Shown: positions 1-30,312 of the stretch, piece after piece
Position numbering within the stretch: the first letter of the stretch is position 1
How the letters are laid out: every line of letters begins with the position of its first letter
Source of the DNA: a virus
IMG/VR virus record: IMGVR_UViG_3300012920_000165
Span: 1 to 30,312 of that record
DNA length: 30,312 nucleotides
Reading direction: 5' to 3' (one strand)
Notes under the pieces: generated by a model
What the model was told of the DNA's origin: nothing
Database searches by the model: none
Seen by the model: the letters and a program-made list of their open reading frames with translations, nothing else
Program-made: the position numbers and the translations under genes

Positions 1-97
1 GGCTTTGAGAATAGGGGCGGGGGGGGCATTCTCGACGACCCCTTTCTGCCTTGGCCAGAGTCGCGCAGCCGCGGTCGCTCTGCCTATGGCTCGAACC

Positions 98-328
98 CTG
101 GCCCTGTTGCCGTCCGTGTAGCCGTTGACGTGACCAGACGGCTACAGCGAGACGCGGCGTAGCTCCTGCCGTATCGCCCAGGTGTGGCCGTTTGTAGCCG
201 CGCCTCGCGCACAGGGTACGCGTTCGCGTCTCTCTGTCGGTTTCTTGTTTTTGGCCCTTCTCTGGCCCTACCTCTCTAGAGATCTCTAGTGCGAGAGATC
301 TATGGCTACACGGCAACAGTAGGGCCAG
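98..328. repeat. Long imperfect inverted repeat, arms 98-123 and 304-328
   Basis: The left arm at 98-123 begins CTGGCCCTGTTGCCGT and the right arm at 304-328 ends AGGGCCAG. Read as a reverse complement, the right arm matches the left almost throughout, with a few bases inserted or missing in the middle. The arms enclose about 180 bases that contain other repeats. Confidence 0.6.
116..147. repeat. Hairpin repeat, copy 1 (TGTAGCCGT / ACGGCTACA)
   Basis: TGTAGCCGT at 117-125 and its exact complement at 138-146 form a 9-bp stem around a 12-base loop. The same hairpin, with a 13-base loop, recurs at 354-386. Two copies about 240 bases apart suggest paired binding sites for one protein. Confidence 0.7.
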
Positions 329-329
329 A
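261..329. promoter_or_regulatory. Nested palindromes, operator-like
   Basis: An exact 11-bp inverted repeat, TCTGGCCCTAC at 261-271 and GTAGGGCCAGA at 319-329, encloses a perfect 14-bp palindrome CTAGAGATCTCTAG at 276-289. The octamer AGAGATCT (278-285) occurs again at 294-301, 16 bases later. Symmetric sites in non-coding DNA are typical of dimeric regulators or terminase/initiator sites. No binding protein can be assigned. Confidence 0.45.
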
Positions 330-353
330 ACGCTGACCCGCTGGCGATCGTAG

Positions 354-386
354 CTGTAGCCGTTGCGCCGGGGCAGACGGCTACAG
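354..386. repeat. Hairpin repeat, copy 2 (CTGTAGCCGT / ACGGCTACAG)
   Basis: CTGTAGCCGT at 354-363 and ACGGCTACAG at 377-386 are exact reverse complements, giving a 10-bp stem with a 13-base loop. This matches the hairpin at 116-147. Its right arm also overlaps the tandem 10-mer array that starts at 374. Confidence 0.7.
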
Positions 387-403
387 ACGGCAACAGACGG
401 CAA
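374..403 (+). repeat. Three tandem 10-bp repeats (CAGACGGCWA)
   Basis: Three directly adjacent copies read CAGACGGCTA, CAGACGGCAA and CAGACGGCAA. A further unit, CAGACGGCTA, is at 135-144. The array ends 11 bases before the stop codon of the DUF927 gene. One repeat per helical turn resembles iterons or cooperative operator sites; the function is not known. Confidence 0.7.
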
Positions 404-414
404 CGCAGCGCAGG

Positions 415-2460
415 TCATGCCAGCACGTCCTCGATAGCGCGACGCTTGAACCGGTAGACGTTGACGACGGACCCATCGAGACGGACGCGAGCGCGACGCC
501 CTGCGCCTGTGTGGATCTCCAGCCAGCCACGTTCGAACCAGCGATCAACCACGCCCACGTCGTACCCTGACGCCTGCAACAGCTTCCGGACAACGGTCGT
601 TCGCACGTCCAGGTGCTCCCAAGTGTCGCCGCTGTTCCAGACGCCCAGCCAGCCCTGAAGCGGAACGCGTGGCGTACCGTCCTCCCTGCTGGTCTCGTGT
701 CGACCCCAGAACGACGTGGGCTTGCTGGCCGCCAGGTCGTAGACCGCGCGCAGGGCCTCTGCTGGCTGGTCAGCGTCGGCGCCTCCAGCGGCTGCGCATT
801 GCTTGGCGTAGGCCATCGGGTCGCATTCTGGCTCCGGTAGGCCGACCTCCTGCGCTATCCACTGCGCCAGGTGCAAGGCTGCGACGATACGCGACAGGCG
901 CCGCGGGACTGCGCCGGCGCTCCTGAGTTCGCCAGCCCAGCGCGTCGACAGGTTGTCCCACTGGACCTGGACTGCCTCGAACGACCCTGGACGGTTCAAG
1001 AACTCGACGACCCGTCGGCCCAGGTGCCCGTAGTGTGCAACGCAACCCAGACCGACCTCGGTGGCCGTGTCGCCGTCTGGCAGTGGGTCGCCGCGCATGC
1101 ACAGGACGCGAGCCCTGGCGCCTGCGTCTGCGGTAAACGACGTCAACGCCTGTTCGCCGTCGCTGTCGAGGCTGGACCGCCAGCGTTCGGTCACGCGCAA
1201 CCCGACGCCCTTGGAGTCGTCGCCAGGCTTCCCTCGGAACGAACCCAGGCCCCCGCTGTGCATGTAGACGACCGCGGCGACGTCGTGCGCGCTTCTGGCC
1301 TTCTTGCTGTCGTCCAGGCTTAGCGGCAGGTTCCGCAGCATAGACGCGACCGCCTCGACGCCCACACGCGTTGTCTTCCAACTGGGCCGCATGGACGGGT
1401 TGCCCCAGACCGAGAAGGCAGCGCGGCCGACCGTGCTCTTCCCCTTGCTGGTCTCGCCGCTCCTGTCGATCGCCCAGTTGTCGCCCAGGTCGAACGGTTC
1501 GATCAAGACAGACGCGACGGCGTTGTACACAGCTAGCCAGAACATAGGCGACCGCCTGGCGGGCCTGACGACCTCCTCCAGCCAGCCGGCCCAGGTGCCC
1601 CTCGACCGGTAGGCGTTCGCCAGTTGTTCCAGGCCAGCGTCAGGCGCCAAGCTGGTCCGGTTGTCCTCGCTGCCCAGGTATTCGCTACCCAGCAGGAACC
1701 CGCCGCCAGGCAACCAGCCGAACCGACCGGCGACGCGTTCCAGCGGCAGCCGGCCGGCGTTCTCCTCGATCGCTGCGTCAATGTAGAACGACAGCGCGCG
1801 GGAGTTCCCTGTCAGGACCGGCAGGCCATGGCGCGACAGGGCGACAAGGGCGCGCGTGTCTGCGAACGTCTTGGCGCTGACGACCCGCTGATCAATCCGT
1901 CCGCTGACCTGTCGCCATGCCAGGCGAACGCTGAACCCATGGCCGTCGACGTCCTCCAGGTAGCCGACGACCCAGATCGGTCGGGTAGCGATGCGGTCTG
2001 CGCCCTCTTCGGTCTCCCGCCAGACGCCGGCCTGGGTCACGCGCCAGCCTACAGGCGCCCTCCAGCCGTCCGGGACGCAGGCAGGCGCCTGATACCCCTC
2101 GTCGTCGTCTGCGACGCGCAGGTGCGAACGCTGGCCGCCTTCTATGGCCTGCTCCTGTTCGCTGCTGCGCTCCTCGACGGTTCCGCGGAACATGCGAACC
2201 GACGGACCCAGACCGCGAACGGTACCCGCCAGCATCAGCCAAGCACGCCAGCCGCCGCGGTCCAGACGCGCGAACGTCGCCAGGTCGTCGACCTTTCGCC
2301 GGTCGTCGGCCAGTTCCGCAAACGCGCGGATCAGCGGTTCCTTCTCCTTGGCGTCGATGGCCTGGCGCAGCTCGTCCAGCAGCTTCCGGCCGCGGTTCGC
2401 TGCGTCGCTTCCTGCTGGCTTCTCGCCGAGCAGCTTCTCTGCAATGTCGTTTGGAATCAT
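415..2460 (-). CDS. DUF927-like primase-helicase ATPase
   Basis: This 681-residue protein is likely the replicative helicase-like ATPase of the phage. The region after about residue 140 resembles DUF927 proteins, which are related to the helicase part of primase-helicases. A Walker A motif, GETSKGKST, is at residues 335-343, and a Walker B-like LSLDDS follows at 380-385. A C-terminal part after about residue 590 looks like a small winged or DNA-contacting domain, but this is only an impression. The gene begins with ATG four bases after the stop of the primase gene and is the last gene of the leftward replication operon. The primase activity seems to be supplied by the separate upstream gene. 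Family assignment is by recall of motif layout. The ATPase call is firm and the replication role likely. Confidence 0.75.
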   Translation of the reverse strand: MIPNDIAEKLLGEKPAGSDAANRGRKLLDELRQAIDAKEKEPLIRAFAELADDRRKVDDLATFARLDRGGWRAWLMLAGTVRGLGPSVRMFRGTVEERSSEQEQAIEGGQRSHLRVADDDEGYQAPACVPDGWRAPVGWRVTQAGVWRETEEGADRIATRPIWVVGYLEDVDGHGFSVRLAWRQVSGRIDQRVVSAKTFADTRALVALSRHGLPVLTGNSRALSFYIDAAIEENAGRLPLERVAGRFGWLPGGGFLLGSEYLGSEDNRTSLAPDAGLEQLANAYRSRGTWAGWLEEVVRPARRSPMFWLAVYNAVASVLIEPFDLGDNWAIDRSGETSKGKSTVGRAAFSVWGNPSMRPSWKTTRVGVEAVASMLRNLPLSLDDSKKARSAHDVAAVVYMHSGGLGSFRGKPGDDSKGVGLRVTERWRSSLDSDGEQALTSFTADAGARARVLCMRGDPLPDGDTATEVGLGCVAHYGHLGRRVVEFLNRPGSFEAVQVQWDNLSTRWAGELRSAGAVPRRLSRIVAALHLAQWIAQEVGLPEPECDPMAYAKQCAAAGGADADQPAEALRAVYDLAASKPTSFWGRHETSREDGTPRVPLQGWLGVWNSGDTWEHLDVRTTVVRKLLQASGYDVGVVDRWFERGWLEIHTGAGRRARVRLDGSVVNVYRFKRRAIEDVLA

Positions 2461-2464
2461 CGGG

Positions 2465-3343
2465 CTACCTCACGAGGAGAGCATAGTCGTACAAAGACGC
2501 AGACCAGCCGCACGACTGGCGGTGGTTGCAATGAGCCCAGCCTGCCGCGACTGCAAACCAGACAGCGTCGCGACCGCAAGATGGGCATCGGCCGTACCGC
2601 GCCAGGTCGGCGCCGTTGTTGGCCCGGATCAGCTTCATGTTGGCCATGACAGCCAGCCGGCGGCGCGCGTCTCGGTCGGTCGCCATGACCCGGCGCAGGT
2701 TCGTCTCCTGTGCGCCCTTGGACCGGATCTCTTCTCTGGCCTTCCTTGCCATGCGCTGGCGCTGTTCCTTGCGCCGCTGGGCCTCGCGCTCTTTCTCTGT
2801 GTGCAGACGCTGGGCCCTGGGCCATAGGTCGATCCGTTCTCCCTCGACCCGTTCGCTGTAGTGCGGACCGCCTGCGCCAACTGCCGGAAGGTAGTACGCC
2901 CTCGACGGGTCGCAGCACTGAGGGTCCGCGCCTTGTCCCTGGTCGCGCAAGACAGACCGGTACAAGTCTCCCCACCATTCGCCAGGGATAGGCCGCAACA
3001 ACGGCAGCACGACACGACAGCGCGGCGCCTGCTCGCTGTGCGACCAGGTCGTGTACCCGACACGCTCCCAGCCATCCCAGCGCGCCAGGGCCTTTGGGAC
3101 GGTCAGTGCAGCGTCGTCGTCGTAGTCCAGGACCAGCGCCGTCACGTTCCGAACGCAGGCAGACGCGCGCCTGGGTTCTGACAGTTCGACAGGCGACCAG
3201 AGCGGAGCGGAGCGCAGCCGCTGCTCCTTCGTCCCGGTGTGAGGACGGAACCGCTGCAGGTCTGCGGACAAGGCAGGCCAGGAAAGCCGAAGGATCTTCG
3301 GGTTCCTGCTGTCGAACGTCGACGCGTAGTAAGCGACGATCAC
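2465..3343 (-). CDS. Small primase (AEP/PrimPol-like) with zinc finger
   Basis: This is probably the phage primase. Residues 70-77 read LVLDYDDD, matching the D-x-D catalytic motif of archaeo-eukaryotic-type primases. Residues 97-111 contain YTTWSH followed by PRCRVV, the pattern expected for the second nucleotide-binding motif. Near the C-terminus C253, C256, C272 and C278 form a CX2CX15CX5C zinc finger. The reading frame is open further upstream, but the GTG at 3343 is preferred: it overlaps the helicase stop codon as GTGA and has GGAGGG about six bases upstream. At 292 residues it lacks a helicase domain, which the next gene (DUF927) can supply. Homology was judged by motifs only. Confidence 0.75.
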   Translation of the reverse strand: MIVAYYASTFDSRNPKILRLSWPALSADLQRFRPHTGTKEQRLRSAPLWSPVELSEPRRASACVRNVTALVLDYDDDAALTVPKALARWDGWERVGYTTWSHSEQAPRCRVVLPLLRPIPGEWWGDLYRSVLRDQGQGADPQCCDPSRAYYLPAVGAGGPHYSERVEGERIDLWPRAQRLHTEKEREAQRRKEQRQRMARKAREEIRSKGAQETNLRRVMATDRDARRRLAVMANMKLIRANNGADLARYGRCPSCGRDAVWFAVAAGWAHCNHRQSCGWSASLYDYALLVR

Positions 3344-4890
3344 GGTGCACCCTCCAGCATCAGCCCTGCACGCGCTGCTGCCTTGCATTCCTCGGCCGTC
3401 GGGATGGGTGAGGCGACCGCAACGTCCCAGGGGTTCTGGTTCGCGTACTGCTGCCAGGGTTGCAGGTTCCGCTTCGACCAGCGGTGGCCAGCGTACAGCA
3501 CGTCCAGCAGGTCGGACGCTTCGCCTTTCGTCAATGCCCAGGGGATCCGGCAAAGGTGCTGCAACGCCAGCCGCAGGCGCTTCGAGCAGCTACCGGCCAG
3601 GCGCTTCGCTTTCTTGATTGCCTCGACCTGCTTCGAGCTGACGTGCGCCAGCCTCCAGCTCTGGTCGCCAGTGTCGTAGCGGTCCAGCTTGATCATCCCT
3701 CGCGCTACCATTGCCAGACGCAGGGCGATCAGGAACCCGATCAGGTTGTCGAGCGCGACGACGTCGCCGGGTCTGGGTTCGCCCTTCTCGCGGTAGGTCG
3801 ACCCGTCGCGCGCCTCTTCTTCGGCTGCCTCGCGCATGGCCTGGCCGATGGCCTCCAGCGACGTCAACCCATGCCGACCCAGGAGCAGCAGCGGGTCCAG
3901 GACGACGCCCTCCAGCTTCGCGCCCAGGGCCTCTGGCGGGTCAGGGTCGACCCGGAACACGCGACCGATCTCCTGCAAGAACCGCACGCGCGCGTGCACG
4001 TTTCGACGCAGACAGATCCACCGCAGCCACGGCAGGTCGACGCCCTCGGCCAGCAGGCTGACGTGTACCAGCGCGCGCAGGTCGCCCGTCCGCAGGCGTT
4101 CCAGCTTGGCCGCGCGTTCGTCCAGGCTGTGCTGGCTGTGGATGGATTCAGCGGCCAGGCCCTGGTCAGACAGCCAGGACGCGTACGCGTCTGCGTCTGC
4201 AATGTTCCGCGCGCTGACAATGCCAGGGCCTGCGCCTGCCTGTTCTTCGATCATCTCAAGACACGCACGGTTCAGATCGGCTGCGTTGTCGCCGTGGTAG
4301 CGCTCGTGGCGCATCGGGACCAGGACACCGTCGGCCATGGCGTCCTCCAGAGTGTACCGGTACAAGACCGCGTCGAACAGTTCCAGCGACTCCTTGGGCA
4401 GCGATCGGAACGGGGTTGCAGTGAACCCGACGAGCGACGCGGGGGCCAGCCGCGGGATCTCGGCTCGCAGGGTTGCGCCCTGTGTTCCGTGCGCCTCGTC
4501 ACAAATCAGCAGCGCAACCCGTCGCCCCTGCTCCTCCAACGCCTGACGCAGCGACGGTACAGACGAGTTGCACGCGACGACCACGCGCCGGTCGTGCTGT
4601 TTGCCTCGTTCGTAAAACGTGCCAACGGTCTCCTCGCCCAGCCAGCGGCGCAGGGTTCCGGCGAGCTGTTCGACCAGCGCCTGGCGCGGTGCTGTGACCA
4701 GGACGACGCGGTCGCCTGTCTTCGGCAGCGCGGTAGCCACGAGCGCCGTCTGTAGAATGCTCTTGCCGCTTCCCATGACAGCCGACACGATCCCACGTTC
4801 TCCGCGGCGCAGGGCGTCGACAATCACCGGCAACGCGGCGCGCTGCCAGTCGCGAGGCACCCAGGGCGCCTCGTTCCATACGTCTGTCAT
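3340..4890 (-). CDS. SF2 DEAD/DEAH-box helicase
   Basis: This 516-residue protein has the full set of superfamily 2 helicase motifs: GSGKS at 40-44 (motif I), DEAH at 131-134 (motif II), TATPF at 157-161 (motif III), AEGVD at 281-285 (motif V) and QEIGRVFR at 306-313 (motif VI). The first 30 residues (PRDWQ) form the Q-like motif seen in RecG/UvsW-type and type III restriction-like helicases. It likely unwinds or remodels DNA during phage replication, as UvsW does in T4. The roughly 200 residues after motif VI are unassigned. It sits directly upstream of primase and DUF927 with a 4-base overlap, so the three are likely co-translated. There is no strong Shine-Dalgarno before the ATG. Confidence 0.9.
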   Translation of the reverse strand: MTDVWNEAPWVPRDWQRAALPVIVDALRRGERGIVSAVMGSGKSILQTALVATALPKTGDRVVLVTAPRQALVEQLAGTLRRWLGEETVGTFYERGKQHDRRVVVACNSSVPSLRQALEEQGRRVALLICDEAHGTQGATLRAEIPRLAPASLVGFTATPFRSLPKESLELFDAVLYRYTLEDAMADGVLVPMRHERYHGDNAADLNRACLEMIEEQAGAGPGIVSARNIADADAYASWLSDQGLAAESIHSQHSLDERAAKLERLRTGDLRALVHVSLLAEGVDLPWLRWICLRRNVHARVRFLQEIGRVFRVDPDPPEALGAKLEGVVLDPLLLLGRHGLTSLEAIGQAMREAAEEEARDGSTYREKGEPRPGDVVALDNLIGFLIALRLAMVARGMIKLDRYDTGDQSWRLAHVSSKQVEAIKKAKRLAGSCSKRLRLALQHLCRIPWALTKGEASDLLDVLYAGHRWSKRNLQPWQQYANQNPWDVAVASPIPTAEECKAAARAGLMLEGAP

Positions 4891-4939: not shown

Positions 4940-5242
4940 TCAGGGGCGCGCCGTCTGCAGGTGCGTCAGCAGGTCGCGACCTGGCGTGACGCCGTCAAGG
5001 TCCAGCGCGCTCTTAAGGATCGTCAGGTGAAGCGCCGTCGTGCGCTGCCCTGGGCCCCACGTCAGGCCGATCGGTTCGCTTGTCTCGGCCAGCAACCAGA
5101 CGACGCGCACTGGGTCGTCCTCAATATGAAGCAACGTCTTGGAAAGTTGCGTGCGCAGTTGTGCGGATCCGTCTGGAGCCACCCAGAGTTCCAAGCCCTT
5201 GAGAGCGCCCGACAGCTTCCGCTGTTGCATCAGTTGCGACAC
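4940..5242 (-). CDS. Hypothetical protein (100 aa)
   Basis: I do not recognise this protein. It is soluble-looking, with no membrane segment or cysteine motif. The GTG at 5242 is chosen because AGGAG stands six bases upstream; it then overlaps the preceding winged-helix gene by 13 bases. An ATG at 5230, which overlaps the preceding stop as TGATG, is an alternative and would shorten it by four residues. It lies in a run of small early genes upstream of the helicase, so a role in early takeover or replication control is possible but unproven. Confidence 0.65.
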   Translation of the reverse strand: MSQLMQQRKLSGALKGLELWVAPDGSAQLRTQLSKTLLHIEDDPVRVVWLLAETSEPIGLTWGPGQRTTALHLTILKSALDLDGVTPGRDLLTHLQTARP

Positions 5243-5460
5243 GGCGTTCTCCTGTACAGGTACGCAGGCCGTCCGCGGCCTTCTGAGTAGCGCAGTCCGA
5301 CGCGCTCGATCCTACCCTGTGCGATCAGCCGGTACAGGCAGCGGCGCACGCTCGACAGGTCTCGACCGAACTCTTCGGCCAGTTCGGGCGTCGTCGCCTG
5401 TCGGCCATCCTTTAGAGCGCGCAAGATCCGACCGCTCGTCGGCTGGTACCCTTCAGGCAT
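5230..5460 (-). CDS. Winged-helix DNA-binding protein candidate (76 aa)
   Basis: The 76 residues fit a winged helix-turn-helix domain. A first helix (SGRILRALKDG) is followed by TPELAEEFGRDLSSVRRCLYRLIAQG, split here as TPELAEEFGRD and LSSVRRCLYRLIAQG, typical of helices 2 and 3. A wing then follows with GRGRPAYLY. It could be a transcriptional regulator of the phage. The longer open frame upstream is rejected because it overlaps most of the preceding gene; the ATG at 5460 overlaps that gene's stop as ATGCCTGA. Its cognate site is unknown, although the repeats at 1-414 and 6626-6652 are possible candidates. Confidence 0.7.
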   Translation of the reverse strand: MPEGYQPTSGRILRALKDGRQATTPELAEEFGRDLSSVRRCLYRLIAQGRIERVGLRYSEGRGRPAYLYRRTPCRN

Positions 5461-5800
5461 TGCAGCACCCACCGCAAGAGGACGGCGCGACCTGCTCGAC
5501 CTCGGTTTCTGGCAAGACGTGCAAGACCCATCCGTTTCCGATCGCGTAGTAGGTCGCGCCATGCGGGCCCGCCTCGGCCGACAGGCAGCGGGTCGGCAGG
5601 TCCAGGACAAACCCTTCGCCCATTCGGATCAGCCGCCTGCCGCCGCTGCGCTCCAAATAGACGTGGCCGATCGGCAGACCTGGCGCCGTGCCTTTCGGAT
5701 ACTCGAACACGTTCAGACTCCAGGACTCGACGCCAGACAGACGCGCGTCGTAGGTCGCGCAGCGCGCTCGAATCTGTTCAAGTGTGATGCGTTCAGACAT
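5453..5800 (-). CDS. Hypothetical protein (115 aa)
   Basis: I do not recognise the family. The predicted character is a small alpha/beta protein with several beta-strand-like stretches (for example IGHVYLERS, YYAIGNGWVLHVL) and a cysteine-rich C-terminal end, SCGGCCNA, with three cysteines that could bind metal. Its ATG overlaps the stop of the preceding membrane protein as ATGTCTGA, and its own stop overlaps the winged-helix gene by eight bases. Such tight overlap indicates one co-translated early operon. Confidence 0.65.
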   Translation of the reverse strand: MSERITLEQIRARCATYDARLSGVESWSLNVFEYPKGTAPGLPIGHVYLERSGGRRLIRMGEGFVLDLPTRCLSAEAGPHGATYYAIGNGWVLHVLPETEVEQVAPSSCGGCCNA

Positions 5801-9548: not shown

Positions 9549-9551
9549 CGC

Positions 9552-9731
9552 ATGCCTGTTTTTCAGAGGGTCGACGAGCGCGGCCACTATTTCCAGTGGG
9601 GCGACACAGGAAAGAAGTACTATTTCGACCCATCATCGCTCGTCTCGTCTGCTAGGGCGCGCCAAAAGGCCCACAAGCAGGGGCGCGCGGTTCGGGCGCG
9701 TCAGGGCGCCGCCGGCGAGTACAAACGCTGA
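9552..9731 (+). CDS. Small YYF/QGRAV module protein (59 aa)
   Basis: A 60-codon gene that begins with ATG three bases after the preceding stop. The protein contains FQRVDERGHYFQWGDTG, KKYYFDPSS and ARARQKAHKQGRAV, a short module I recall from many environmental phage proteins. It also resembles residues 10-50 of the preceding gene. It is basic and has no cysteine or membrane segment. The resemblance to a known family and the tight coupling make it a real gene rather than a chance ORF. It is the last gene of the rightward operon; no strong terminator is seen before the convergent genes at 9815. Confidence 0.7.
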   Translation: MPVFQRVDERGHYFQWGDTGKKYYFDPSSLVSSARARQKAHKQGRAVRARQGAAGEYKR

Positions 9732-9814
9732 GCAGACCCAGACGACGCCCCGAAGAAGACAAACAGACAGACAGATAGCGCCGCCTGGGTTCTGACGTCT
9801 GTAACGCGCTCCGC

Positions 9815-26911: not shown

Positions 26912-28342
26912 TCAGTGCGCGACGCCTTCAGCCATCGGAACAGCAATATAGCGCAGCGCGTCGATCCCGTGTTTGTTTGGGTCGGTTGGCGACGTGCTGC
27001 CGTTCCACTCGTTCAGGTCTCGGATCAGGTCGTGGCAGGACGGGTCAACCGAGAACCGCGGCGGGTCGCTGATCATCATGCGATGGAGGATTTCCGACGA
27101 CTCCCAGACGCTCTGATCAAACTTGCGGGGCGTTCGCATAAAACGCAACGATTTCGGCAACTTCTCGCTCCAGCCCCGCGCCCGCGTGTCGTGTCCCAAC
27201 AGTTCCGCGATCGCAGCCTTCAGACGGGTGTTCGATTTCTTCCCGCCTCGCTTGTCCCCATGGTGGGCTCGGTCTCCGACCCACTGATCAATGTCGCCCA
27301 GCGCGAACCCGCGGGACTGCAAGAGGTCCAGGATTCCGCGCGCGTCGTCCTTCGTCTGGGTCCGTCCGTCGCCTGACCATTCGCCCAGAACATGGACGGC
27401 GCTGTACAGGCCGCGGCCGCCGCACGCTGCCAGGATGACCCGCTGGGATCCGGGCTTGCTGCCGTGGTCGATTCCGACACCAAGGCGCCAGCCGGTCAGG
27501 TCTGACAGCGGCCGCTCTTCGACCAAGTCTGCGCGCCATGCAGAGAAGTAGGCCGCATCGCGTTTCGGGGTCCGACTGCGACCCATTCGCATATCGGCTT
27601 CCACTTTCGACAGGCCCGCCTCGAACTGGCGCAGCTCGTCGGGTGTCATCCAGGGCAGTTCGACCAGACCGCCCCGCGGCGTGACTGCGTCGAGGGTCAG
27701 CGGGACGTGGATCTGTCCTGCCCAGGGTCGGGTCTCGTCGTCGACCAGCGCCCAGAGGTAGTCGACCTTTGCAGCCGTTCCCAGGGTCGGCGTGAACCCC
27801 TGGAACATGCGACCGTCTCGACCCAGCAGCCGCGGCCAGAGTTCGTTGTAGACCGCTTCCGGCAGCGGTTCGTCCGTGATCACGACGTTGGCGCGCGGGC
27901 CTGCGAGGTTCGCAGCCTTAAACGTCCCAAGGCGCAGCTCGCCGCCAGCGCCAGGACCGCGGACGATGTCGAACACCTGGAGGCGTTGCCCTTTCATTCC
28001 GCCAGCTTCGTACCGGACGCCCTCCTTCAGCCAGTGCCGCAGGCGGCCGCCCATCATGTACCGGATCGTCGACCCAAGCTGGCTCCAGGTGTTCCCAGCC
28101 AGGATCACGGTTTGCGGTCCTGGGCGCTGCCAGTGTAGCGACCCCTCGATCGCACGCGTCGCCAGTTCGGCCAGCCCTGTGGACTTGCCAATCCCGTTTG
28201 CGCCCCAGAACACCGTAAGCTTGTACGGCGACCGGAACAGGCGCTCCTGTGCGTTTGTCCAGCGCGCCGTCCGGTCCTGGCGCTGCGTCCTTGCGTCCAG
28301 CAGCAGGTCGCGCGGAGGAGGCGAGATCAGGCGGAGTGTCAT
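26912..28342 (-). CDS. terL: Terminase large subunit
   Basis: The motor and nuclease for packaging DNA. GANGIGKST at residues 47-55 is the Walker A motif, VVITDE at 153-158 the Walker B motif with catalytic glutamate. The nuclease domain begins near residue 285 with GVGIDHGSK (D292) and ends with GIDALRY (D461), typical terminase RNase H-like acidic residues. Full length, 476 residues. The ATG at 28342 overlaps the methyltransferase stop as ATGA. No small terminase gene is recognised immediately upstream; the unassigned 120-residue gene at 29908-30270 is a candidate. Confidence 0.93.
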   Translation of the reverse strand: MTLRLISPPPRDLLLDARTQRQDRTARWTNAQERLFRSPYKLTVFWGANGIGKSTGLAELATRAIEGSLHWQRPGPQTVILAGNTWSQLGSTIRYMMGGRLRHWLKEGVRYEAGGMKGQRLQVFDIVRGPGAGGELRLGTFKAANLAGPRANVVITDEPLPEAVYNELWPRLLGRDGRMFQGFTPTLGTAAKVDYLWALVDDETRPWAGQIHVPLTLDAVTPRGGLVELPWMTPDELRQFEAGLSKVEADMRMGRSRTPKRDAAYFSAWRADLVEERPLSDLTGWRLGVGIDHGSKPGSQRVILAACGGRGLYSAVHVLGEWSGDGRTQTKDDARGILDLLQSRGFALGDIDQWVGDRAHHGDKRGGKKSNTRLKAAIAELLGHDTRARGWSEKLPKSLRFMRTPRKFDQSVWESSEILHRMMISDPPRFSVDPSCHDLIRDLNEWNGSTSPTDPNKHGIDALRYIAVPMAEGVAH

Positions 28343-29467: not shown

Positions 29468-29911
29468 TCATCCGACACGCTCCCATCGGAGCTTGACCTG
29501 CAGCGGATGAAGGTCGACCCTCGGTCTGTCTTTGCGACTCCAACTCCCGCCGCCGGCCTCTCCGATCAGCGTAAAGCCAGCGCCGCGGAGACTGGCGCCG
29601 CCCTCCTCCGGCAGCGTGTACGTCACAAGCCGACGGTAGCCGAGCGCCCGCGACGCGCGCCAGGCTGCGCCGTACAGCTTGCTGCAGGCGTTCCGTGTCC
29701 CGTCTGTCGCGACGCGCAGGACCTCGACCGTCCAGCCGTCCGTCAGCATTCTGGCGACCGGCCGGCCGACGATGCAGACGCCTACGATCTGGTCGTCCTT
29801 CGCGACAGCGATCTGCAAGATTGACCCGCGTGGCGGTCGGTGATGCCGATGGGTTCGGGCGACCCAGGCGAACGCCTCGCGCTGTGTAATGGGTACGATC
29901 TGCAGGCTCAT
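29468..29911 (-). CDS. XF1762-like / GNAT-fold protein (147 aa)
   Basis: The 147-residue protein matches the XF1762-like phage family from memory. Early on THRHHRPP (20-27) is conserved, then VGRPVAR (48-54), EVLRVATDGTRNACSKLYG (63-81) and ALGYRRL followed by LPEEGGASLRGAGF. This layout fits a GNAT acetyltransferase-like fold. Its substrate is unknown. The gene lies directly before a DNA methyltransferase, so a role in DNA modification, comparable to the GNAT-related Mom protein of phage Mu, is an attractive inference. ATG at 29911 overlaps the previous stop as ATGA; the longer open frame upstream is rejected. Confidence 0.8.
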   Translation of the reverse strand: MSLQIVPITQREAFAWVARTHRHHRPPRGSILQIAVAKDDQIVGVCIVGRPVARMLTDGWTVEVLRVATDGTRNACSKLYGAAWRASRALGYRRLVTYTLPEEGGASLRGAGFTLIGEAGGGSWSRKDRPRVDLHPLQVKLRWERVG

Positions 29912-30270
29912 CCGACACGCTCCAGCAACAGCGCGCCGTTCGAGACCGACAGCGCGTAGCCGTTGCGAGCCAGCCAGGTCGTGACGTAGATCTCCAGGTC
30001 GTCGTCGGTCGCTTGCTGCGCGTCCTGTTCGACCTTGTCGCGCCATTCGGCCGCGGTCAGGTTCGCAGCGTCGTACGCGACCTGGTCGGCTGCGCGCAGC
30101 TCCTCCAACTCCTGACTCGCGCGAGCAACGGCGCGCAGGCTTTGAACGTACGCGACCGAACCCGGCCGCGCCTCCTCGACTGCGAGCTGCGCGCGTTCGA
30201 GCAGCCACTCCGCACGCTGGCGCGGGGTCATATCGACCAGGGCTGCGGCTATGTTTGCGGGATCACTCAC
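29908..30270 (-). CDS. Hypothetical protein (120 aa), small terminase candidate
   Basis: A helical, acidic protein with DMTPRQRAEWLLERAQLAVE near the N-terminus and TTWLARNGYALSVSNGALLL near the C-terminus. It is the first gene of the leftward late cluster and its start, GTG at 30270, has GGGAG about six bases upstream. No motif identifies it. Small terminases are often of this size, helical, and first in the packaging operon, and none is recognised elsewhere in the window. An N-terminal DNA-binding helix is not obvious, so the idea stays tentative. Confidence 0.55.
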   Translation of the reverse strand: MSDPANIAAALVDMTPRQRAEWLLERAQLAVEEARPGSVAYVQSLRAVARASQELEELRAADQVAYDAANLTAAEWRDKVEQDAQQATDDDLEIYVTTWLARNGYALSVSNGALLLERVG

Positions 30271-30312
30271 TTTTTGCTCCCTGGGGGGGTTGTGCGGCGA
30301 GAAAACATCGAC
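30271..30312. other. Non-coding right end
   Basis: The last 42 bases contain the Shine-Dalgarno of the leftward gene at 30270 and a run of seven G at 30283-30289. No promoter is visible. It may join the non-coding left end if the genome is circular or terminally redundant; no direct repeat shared by both ends was seen. Confidence 0.4.

Follow-up and report, generated by a model that had tools for sequence, protein, structure and literature searches.

An iteron array behind a DUF927 helicase gene, predicted to be a replication origin beside a cos-like end in a 30-kb phage genome

Genes and repeats at the ends of the window

The window, i.e., the whole stretch of DNA analyzed here, is an entire virus record of 30,312 bases and lacks terminal repeats. 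Its early genes (helicase, primase-like, Rep, and RusA) point leftwards and reach position 415, and its late genes run from the right end, where a TerS-like ORF is followed by a methyltransferase gene and then by the gene for the terminase large subunit (TerL). The following genes are referred to hereafter:

415–2460, minus strand: Rep, a DUF927 initiator helicase (Pfam PF06048, E 9e-37; PDB 8tch, E 2e-29, and 5dgk, E 1e-7)
2465–3553, minus strand: primase-like protein, encoded upstream of Rep (matches to PHROG primase/helicase families, E 7e-11 to 5e-5; no Pfam match)
26912–28342, minus strand: TerL (weak PHROG terminase match, E 3.5e-4; conserved among relatives)
29908–30270, minus strand: TerS-like ORF (assigned from its position and from relatives; no family match)

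DUF927 has been predicted to act as a helicase in mobile elements (PMC5862659), and the closest solved relatives of Rep by sequence are 8tch, a SaPI Rep annotated as 'Pathogenicity island protein', and 5dgk, an SCC Cch annotated as 'Active helicase'. The C-terminus of the window Rep has no Pfam match of its own; an HTH_56 domain was found only in the Rep of one relative (L002), just below the curated cut-off, and it aligns to the same part of Rep. The AlphaFold model of Rep (mean pLDDT 44) was too poor to use. When 25 kb of the window was compared by megablast with the annotated phage collection, no match was obtained, and the TerL and TerS-like protein searches for matches also gave none. The relatives used below were found through TerL; searches with the primase (2465–3553) and a Rep-alignment search of viral contigs yielded no new ones.

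A preliminary description of this DNA had drawn attention to a nest of repeats at 1–414, and its counts proved correct. The 8-mer TGTAGCCG has 6 exact matches in the 30,312 bases, as against 0.76 expected and at most 3 in 100 shuffles, and five of the six lie within 1–414, three forward and two reverse (117+, 139−, 193+, 355+, and 378−). No other 400-bp segment carries at least five copies of any 8-mer when the whole window is scanned; the copies are clustered here. Two hairpins were also present as described: the one at 116–147 has arms of 9 bp (117–125/138–146) with 12 nt between them, and the one at 354–386 has arms of 10 bp (354–363/377–386) with 13 nt between them. Two details had to be corrected. 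The three tandem 10-mers exist, but at about 376–405 rather than 374–403, a shift of 2 bp; and the region is the longest gene-free one rather than the only long one, as the ORF positions leave another of about 266 bp at 9549–9814. The GC skew of the window was uninformative.

Arrangement of the iterons and the low-stability center

Taking TGTWGCCG(T) as the iteron unit, we scanned for TGTWGCCGT with one mismatch permitted. Eleven copies were found in 1–414, where the density elsewhere in the window would predict 0.35. They are listed below from the Rep-proximal half onward, together with the predicted unwinding element taken from the nearest-neighbor profile:

397–405, minus strand: iteron 1, one mismatch; Rep-proximal half
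387–395, minus strand: iteron 2
377–385, minus strand: iteron 3, right arm of the hairpin at 354–386
355–363, plus strand: iteron 4, facing iteron 3
310–318, minus strand: iteron 5
302–310, minus strand: iteron 6, one mismatch
243–302, no strand: predicted DNA unwinding element
193–201, plus strand: iteron 7, one mismatch, in the ninth base
183–191, plus strand: iteron 8, one mismatch
138–146, minus strand: iteron 9, right arm of the hairpin at 116–147
117–125, plus strand: iteron 10, facing iteron 9
105–113, plus strand: iteron 11

Two features of this arrangement are noteworthy. One is its symmetry: read in the gene direction (minus strand), the sites stand at >0 >10 >20 <43 >87 >95 in one half and at <205 <215 >259 <281 <293 in the other, and 10 of the 11 obey mirror symmetry, a degree equalled by 2 of 5,000 random arrays. 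Both 'hairpins' are a facing iteron pair, one in each half-site. Another is that the segment between the halves, 243–302, is the least stable 60 bp in the entire 30,312-bp record by nearest-neighbor energy; the array centers of the relatives G004, G005, L009, and L002 likewise hold the minimum stability of their available stretches. The array center also contains an 11-bp perfect inverted repeat (261–271/319–329) around an 8-bp inverted repeat (280–287/294–301), a nesting (261–329) that was not seen as such among the relatives looked at.

Comparison with known and related arrays

An array directly 3′ of the gene for a DUF927 helicase of the Cch/SaPIbov1 Rep type (105–405, with the Rep stop at 415), arranged as two iteron sets around a low-stability center, shares these features with the SaPI/SCC-type origins. 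The closest counterpart was found in PT1028 (AY954948, L060), a SaPI-like element with a DUF927-type Rep hit and AGTTCCCG repeats directly behind the Rep gene. Its eleven sites, one of which (offset 183, two mismatches) was added by eye, stand at >0 >9 >20 <43 >87 >96 and <183 <192 >236 <259 <270, again around a low-stability center. With the halves placed independently, the template accommodates every one of the 11 window sites within 1–2 bp, in the same order and signed spacing; the best of 20,000 random arrays placed 8 of 11, and an automatic version of the comparison gave 0 of 2,000. The sequences of the iterons are nevertheless unrelated (TGTWGCCG in the window). PT1028 also differs in being a satellite with an AT-rich host and longer, unrelated flanks, whereas the window is a 30-kb cos-like phage. 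That the PT1028 array would be an origin is taken from published SaPI work in general.

The same template was fitted by 8 of 11 sites in each of the DUF927 phages THSA-485A and Epona, by 9 in G004, and by 8 in G005, fits as good being reached by 1–7 of 2,000 random arrays. In THSA-485A, one site pair is displaced by about 10 bp. As in the window, the repeats of THSA-485A and Epona lie behind a primase/helicase gene, but their iterons are GGTAACCG and GTTTCACC, and their hosts are Firmicutes; indeed, each of these four genomes carries another iteron sequence. The conservation of the repeats in relatives, on which the preliminary description had made its reading depend, thus holds for their number, orientation, and spacing and fails for their letters.

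Among the SCC elements, with their putative SCCmec origin, Cch is a DUF927 helicase, and Cch2 has iterons downstream of its gene that are bound by its C-terminal domain (PMC7581432). The window resembles Cch in its helicase and Cch2 in the position of the iterons. It differs in that the SCCmec origin has three iterons and that Cch2 belongs to another helicase family, and the sequence similarity between Rep and Cch is low (5dgk, E 1e-7).

For L014, Jekyll, phiRg507T2, and AC844P1, the template fit was no better than that of random arrays; facing repeats were found behind the helicase gene in these four nonetheless. In L014 (5654–7433), facing CGTGGAAC repeats come immediately after a VapE-type helicase gene and enclose a GT-rich center of low stability, i.e., the same idea as in the window with another helicase family and another spacing.

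Similar arrays that do not adjoin a Rep gene were found in L002, L016, and L020, which counts against the reading proposed below. These facing iteron arrays (L016, 3441–3821, GTCCCCAC; L020, 1603–1984, GTGGGGCA; L002, 10756–11106, TGTGAACA) have the least stable DNA of the locus inside or beside them, and the L020 array is fully mirror-symmetric (12/12 sites). They are probably origins set apart from rep. Arrays from the 8-mer scan in L046, L013, and L043 were set aside, as they overlap long frames or lie elsewhere; in L043 (2470–2602), a methyltransferase-like ORF is followed by CGGGACCC (as its complement) in nine copies, most of them at 11-bp intervals.

The genome end

The outermost bases of the window form two further features:

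1–40, no strand: one half of a putative cos-like end, with a C/G run at 14–26, from comparison with junction-spanning contigs
30283–30312, no strand: the other half, with the contig start GTCGATGTTT...CCCCCCC on the minus strand and predicted cohesive bases at 30303–30312

Some 15 related contigs, recovered from many metagenomes, begin at the base equal to the right end of the window, about 19–24 bp ahead of a conserved CCCCCCC. A fixed genome end, as in cos-type phages, is common to these relatives. On the opposite side, the junction-spanning contigs carry C/G runs at a distance of no more than about 40 bp, and the run at 14–26 is their counterpart in the window. One relative, L009, reads on from its replication genes across the junction to the TerS-like gene and TerL, and the two window ends therefore belong together. 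In G004, the identical ten bases GTGGCGTAGT occur at both contig ends; such a 10-bp terminal repeat is what a 10-nt 5′ overhang filled in during library making would leave. The window's own ends show no such repeat, and its left end may lack a few bases. G005 continues for about 126 bp past the junction, so that either the joined form of the DNA occurs too or the circle was closed by the assembler.

From these comparisons, 1 to about 40 and 30283–30312 are probably the halves of a cos-like physical end, for which an overhang is predicted. A defined end beside the terminase genes is the arrangement of the lambda-like cos phages, and the G004 repeat fits filled-in cohesive ends; unlike in lambda-like cos ends, C/G runs flank both sides here, and the ends of the window are without a repeat. 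A packaging site had been among the readings first offered for the repeats. A cos-like end is indeed present, but as a separate neighbor confined to the outermost 40 bp or so, and it is not made of the repeats.

Co-variation in two near-identical genomes and alternative readings

The relatives G004 and G005 are about 93% identical overall. Over the last part of the Rep gene and the array, their identity drops to 60–82%; the end sequence is again fully identical. When the two Rep proteins are aligned, 5 differences fall in the first 565 residues and 26 in the last 97, and the iteron changes from TGGTGGACGT to CGGTGGACCT. As the iteron sequence thus changes along with the C-terminus of Rep, the pair is a natural experiment on origin specificity and makes a specificity rule testable. 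The TerS-like protein varies as well: its N-terminal 70 residues or so (L029 and L039, positions 30–270) are strongly different between G004 and G005, the remainder being nearly identical, and a third type of this N-terminus is present in L031–L036. This variation amounts to a modular exchange beside the genome end.

Since the TerS-like N-terminus also differs, the G004/G005 pair alone cannot tell Rep from TerS, and binding by TerS is the main rival. In that case the iterons would be bound by TerS and would form a packaging signal of the cosB or pac type next to the cut site. Besides the co-variation, their location within about 400 bp of the cos-like end speaks for this, as do the arrays of L016 and L020, whose neighbors are HTH/terminase-like ORFs and which are distant from Rep. 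The positions in the window point the other way: the iterons occupy the side of the cut that faces Rep and not the interval from the cut to terS, where cosB of lambda is located; the gap from the end to the TerS-like ORF is only about 42 bp. In geometry, the iterons follow an array that stands behind a SaPI-type Rep gene, the center holds the genome-wide melting minimum, and in L002 some 4 kb, with RusA among them, lie between the array and TerL. Recognition by Rep is favored by the melting minima (G004, G005, L009, and L002), by the location of the array beyond the cut, and by its agreement with the SaPI-type array, and we consider the packaging signal improbable. No recombinant separating Rep from TerS was found, a pattern search for G004-type ends having returned only G004 and G005.

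Repeated facing sites can also be operators, and an HTH-like protein with winged-HTH Pfam hits is encoded nearby (5230–5610), so that the array might be a control region with multiple operators, recognized by a phage repressor or activator. This is very unlikely: a sigma-70-type scan detected no promoter-like site in 1–700, and an origin is the better explanation for eleven mirror-ordered sites that extend over 300 bp and surround a melting minimum. Chance clustering or a coding origin of the repeats can hardly be entertained, for even though a frame of 139 aa (2–418, minus strand) is open from the Rep stop codon, the copy number is far above that of the shuffles and of the remaining genome, the copies lie on both strands with a 10-bp period that is not a multiple of 3, and, as weak evidence, the codon-position GC of the frame is flat (0.66/0.60/0.63), most genes here having a GC3 of 0.74–0.84.

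The predicted origin

Of the origin, packaging site, and multi-operator region proposed at the outset, it is the origin that the geometry, the melting minimum, and the Rep homology support. We therefore regard 105–405 as very probably a phage replication origin of the kind used by the SaPI Rep and SCC Cch initiator helicases, as predicted from sequence. In the mechanism that we propose, the DUF927 helicase (415–2460, minus strand) would bind the eleven iterons TGTWGCCG(T) through its C-terminal domain. The iterons would act as two mirror-image half-sites flanking the easily melted center, on which two Rep assemblies may load face to face and open 243–302. Synthesis would then start with the phage primase, the primer presumably being made by the 2465–3553 product. 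If the separate cos-like end consists of the outer 40 bp or so and 30283–30312, the origin and the genome end would be neighbors.

This kind of origin is already known; what is new is the phage lineage, the neighborhood of the origin and the genome end, and the co-variation. For this uncultured phage, whose lineage matches nothing at the DNA level in the annotated phage collection, a nest of repeats thereby becomes a predicted origin whose initiator can be named. A more general idea, which we put forward tentatively and at somewhat less than even chances, is that such origins may be read by geometry: satellites and tailed phages, and with them no fewer than two helicase types (DUF927 and the G004/G005 Prim-Pol fusion), would share a fixed scaffold of about 11 sites with signed spacing, whereas the letters of the iteron would turn over jointly with the C-terminal domain of Rep as an exchangeable address module. 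This suggests a possible rule for finding origins where the iteron sequence is unknown, namely signed spacing plus a melting minimum behind an initiator helicase gene.

Finally, a Rep homolog with 42% identity was found in the chromosome of a Gemmatimonadota MAG (L059, 4944–6968), and the same small ORFs stand behind the Rep homolog in L059 and L002. This locus is possibly a prophage and may hint at the hosts of such phages.
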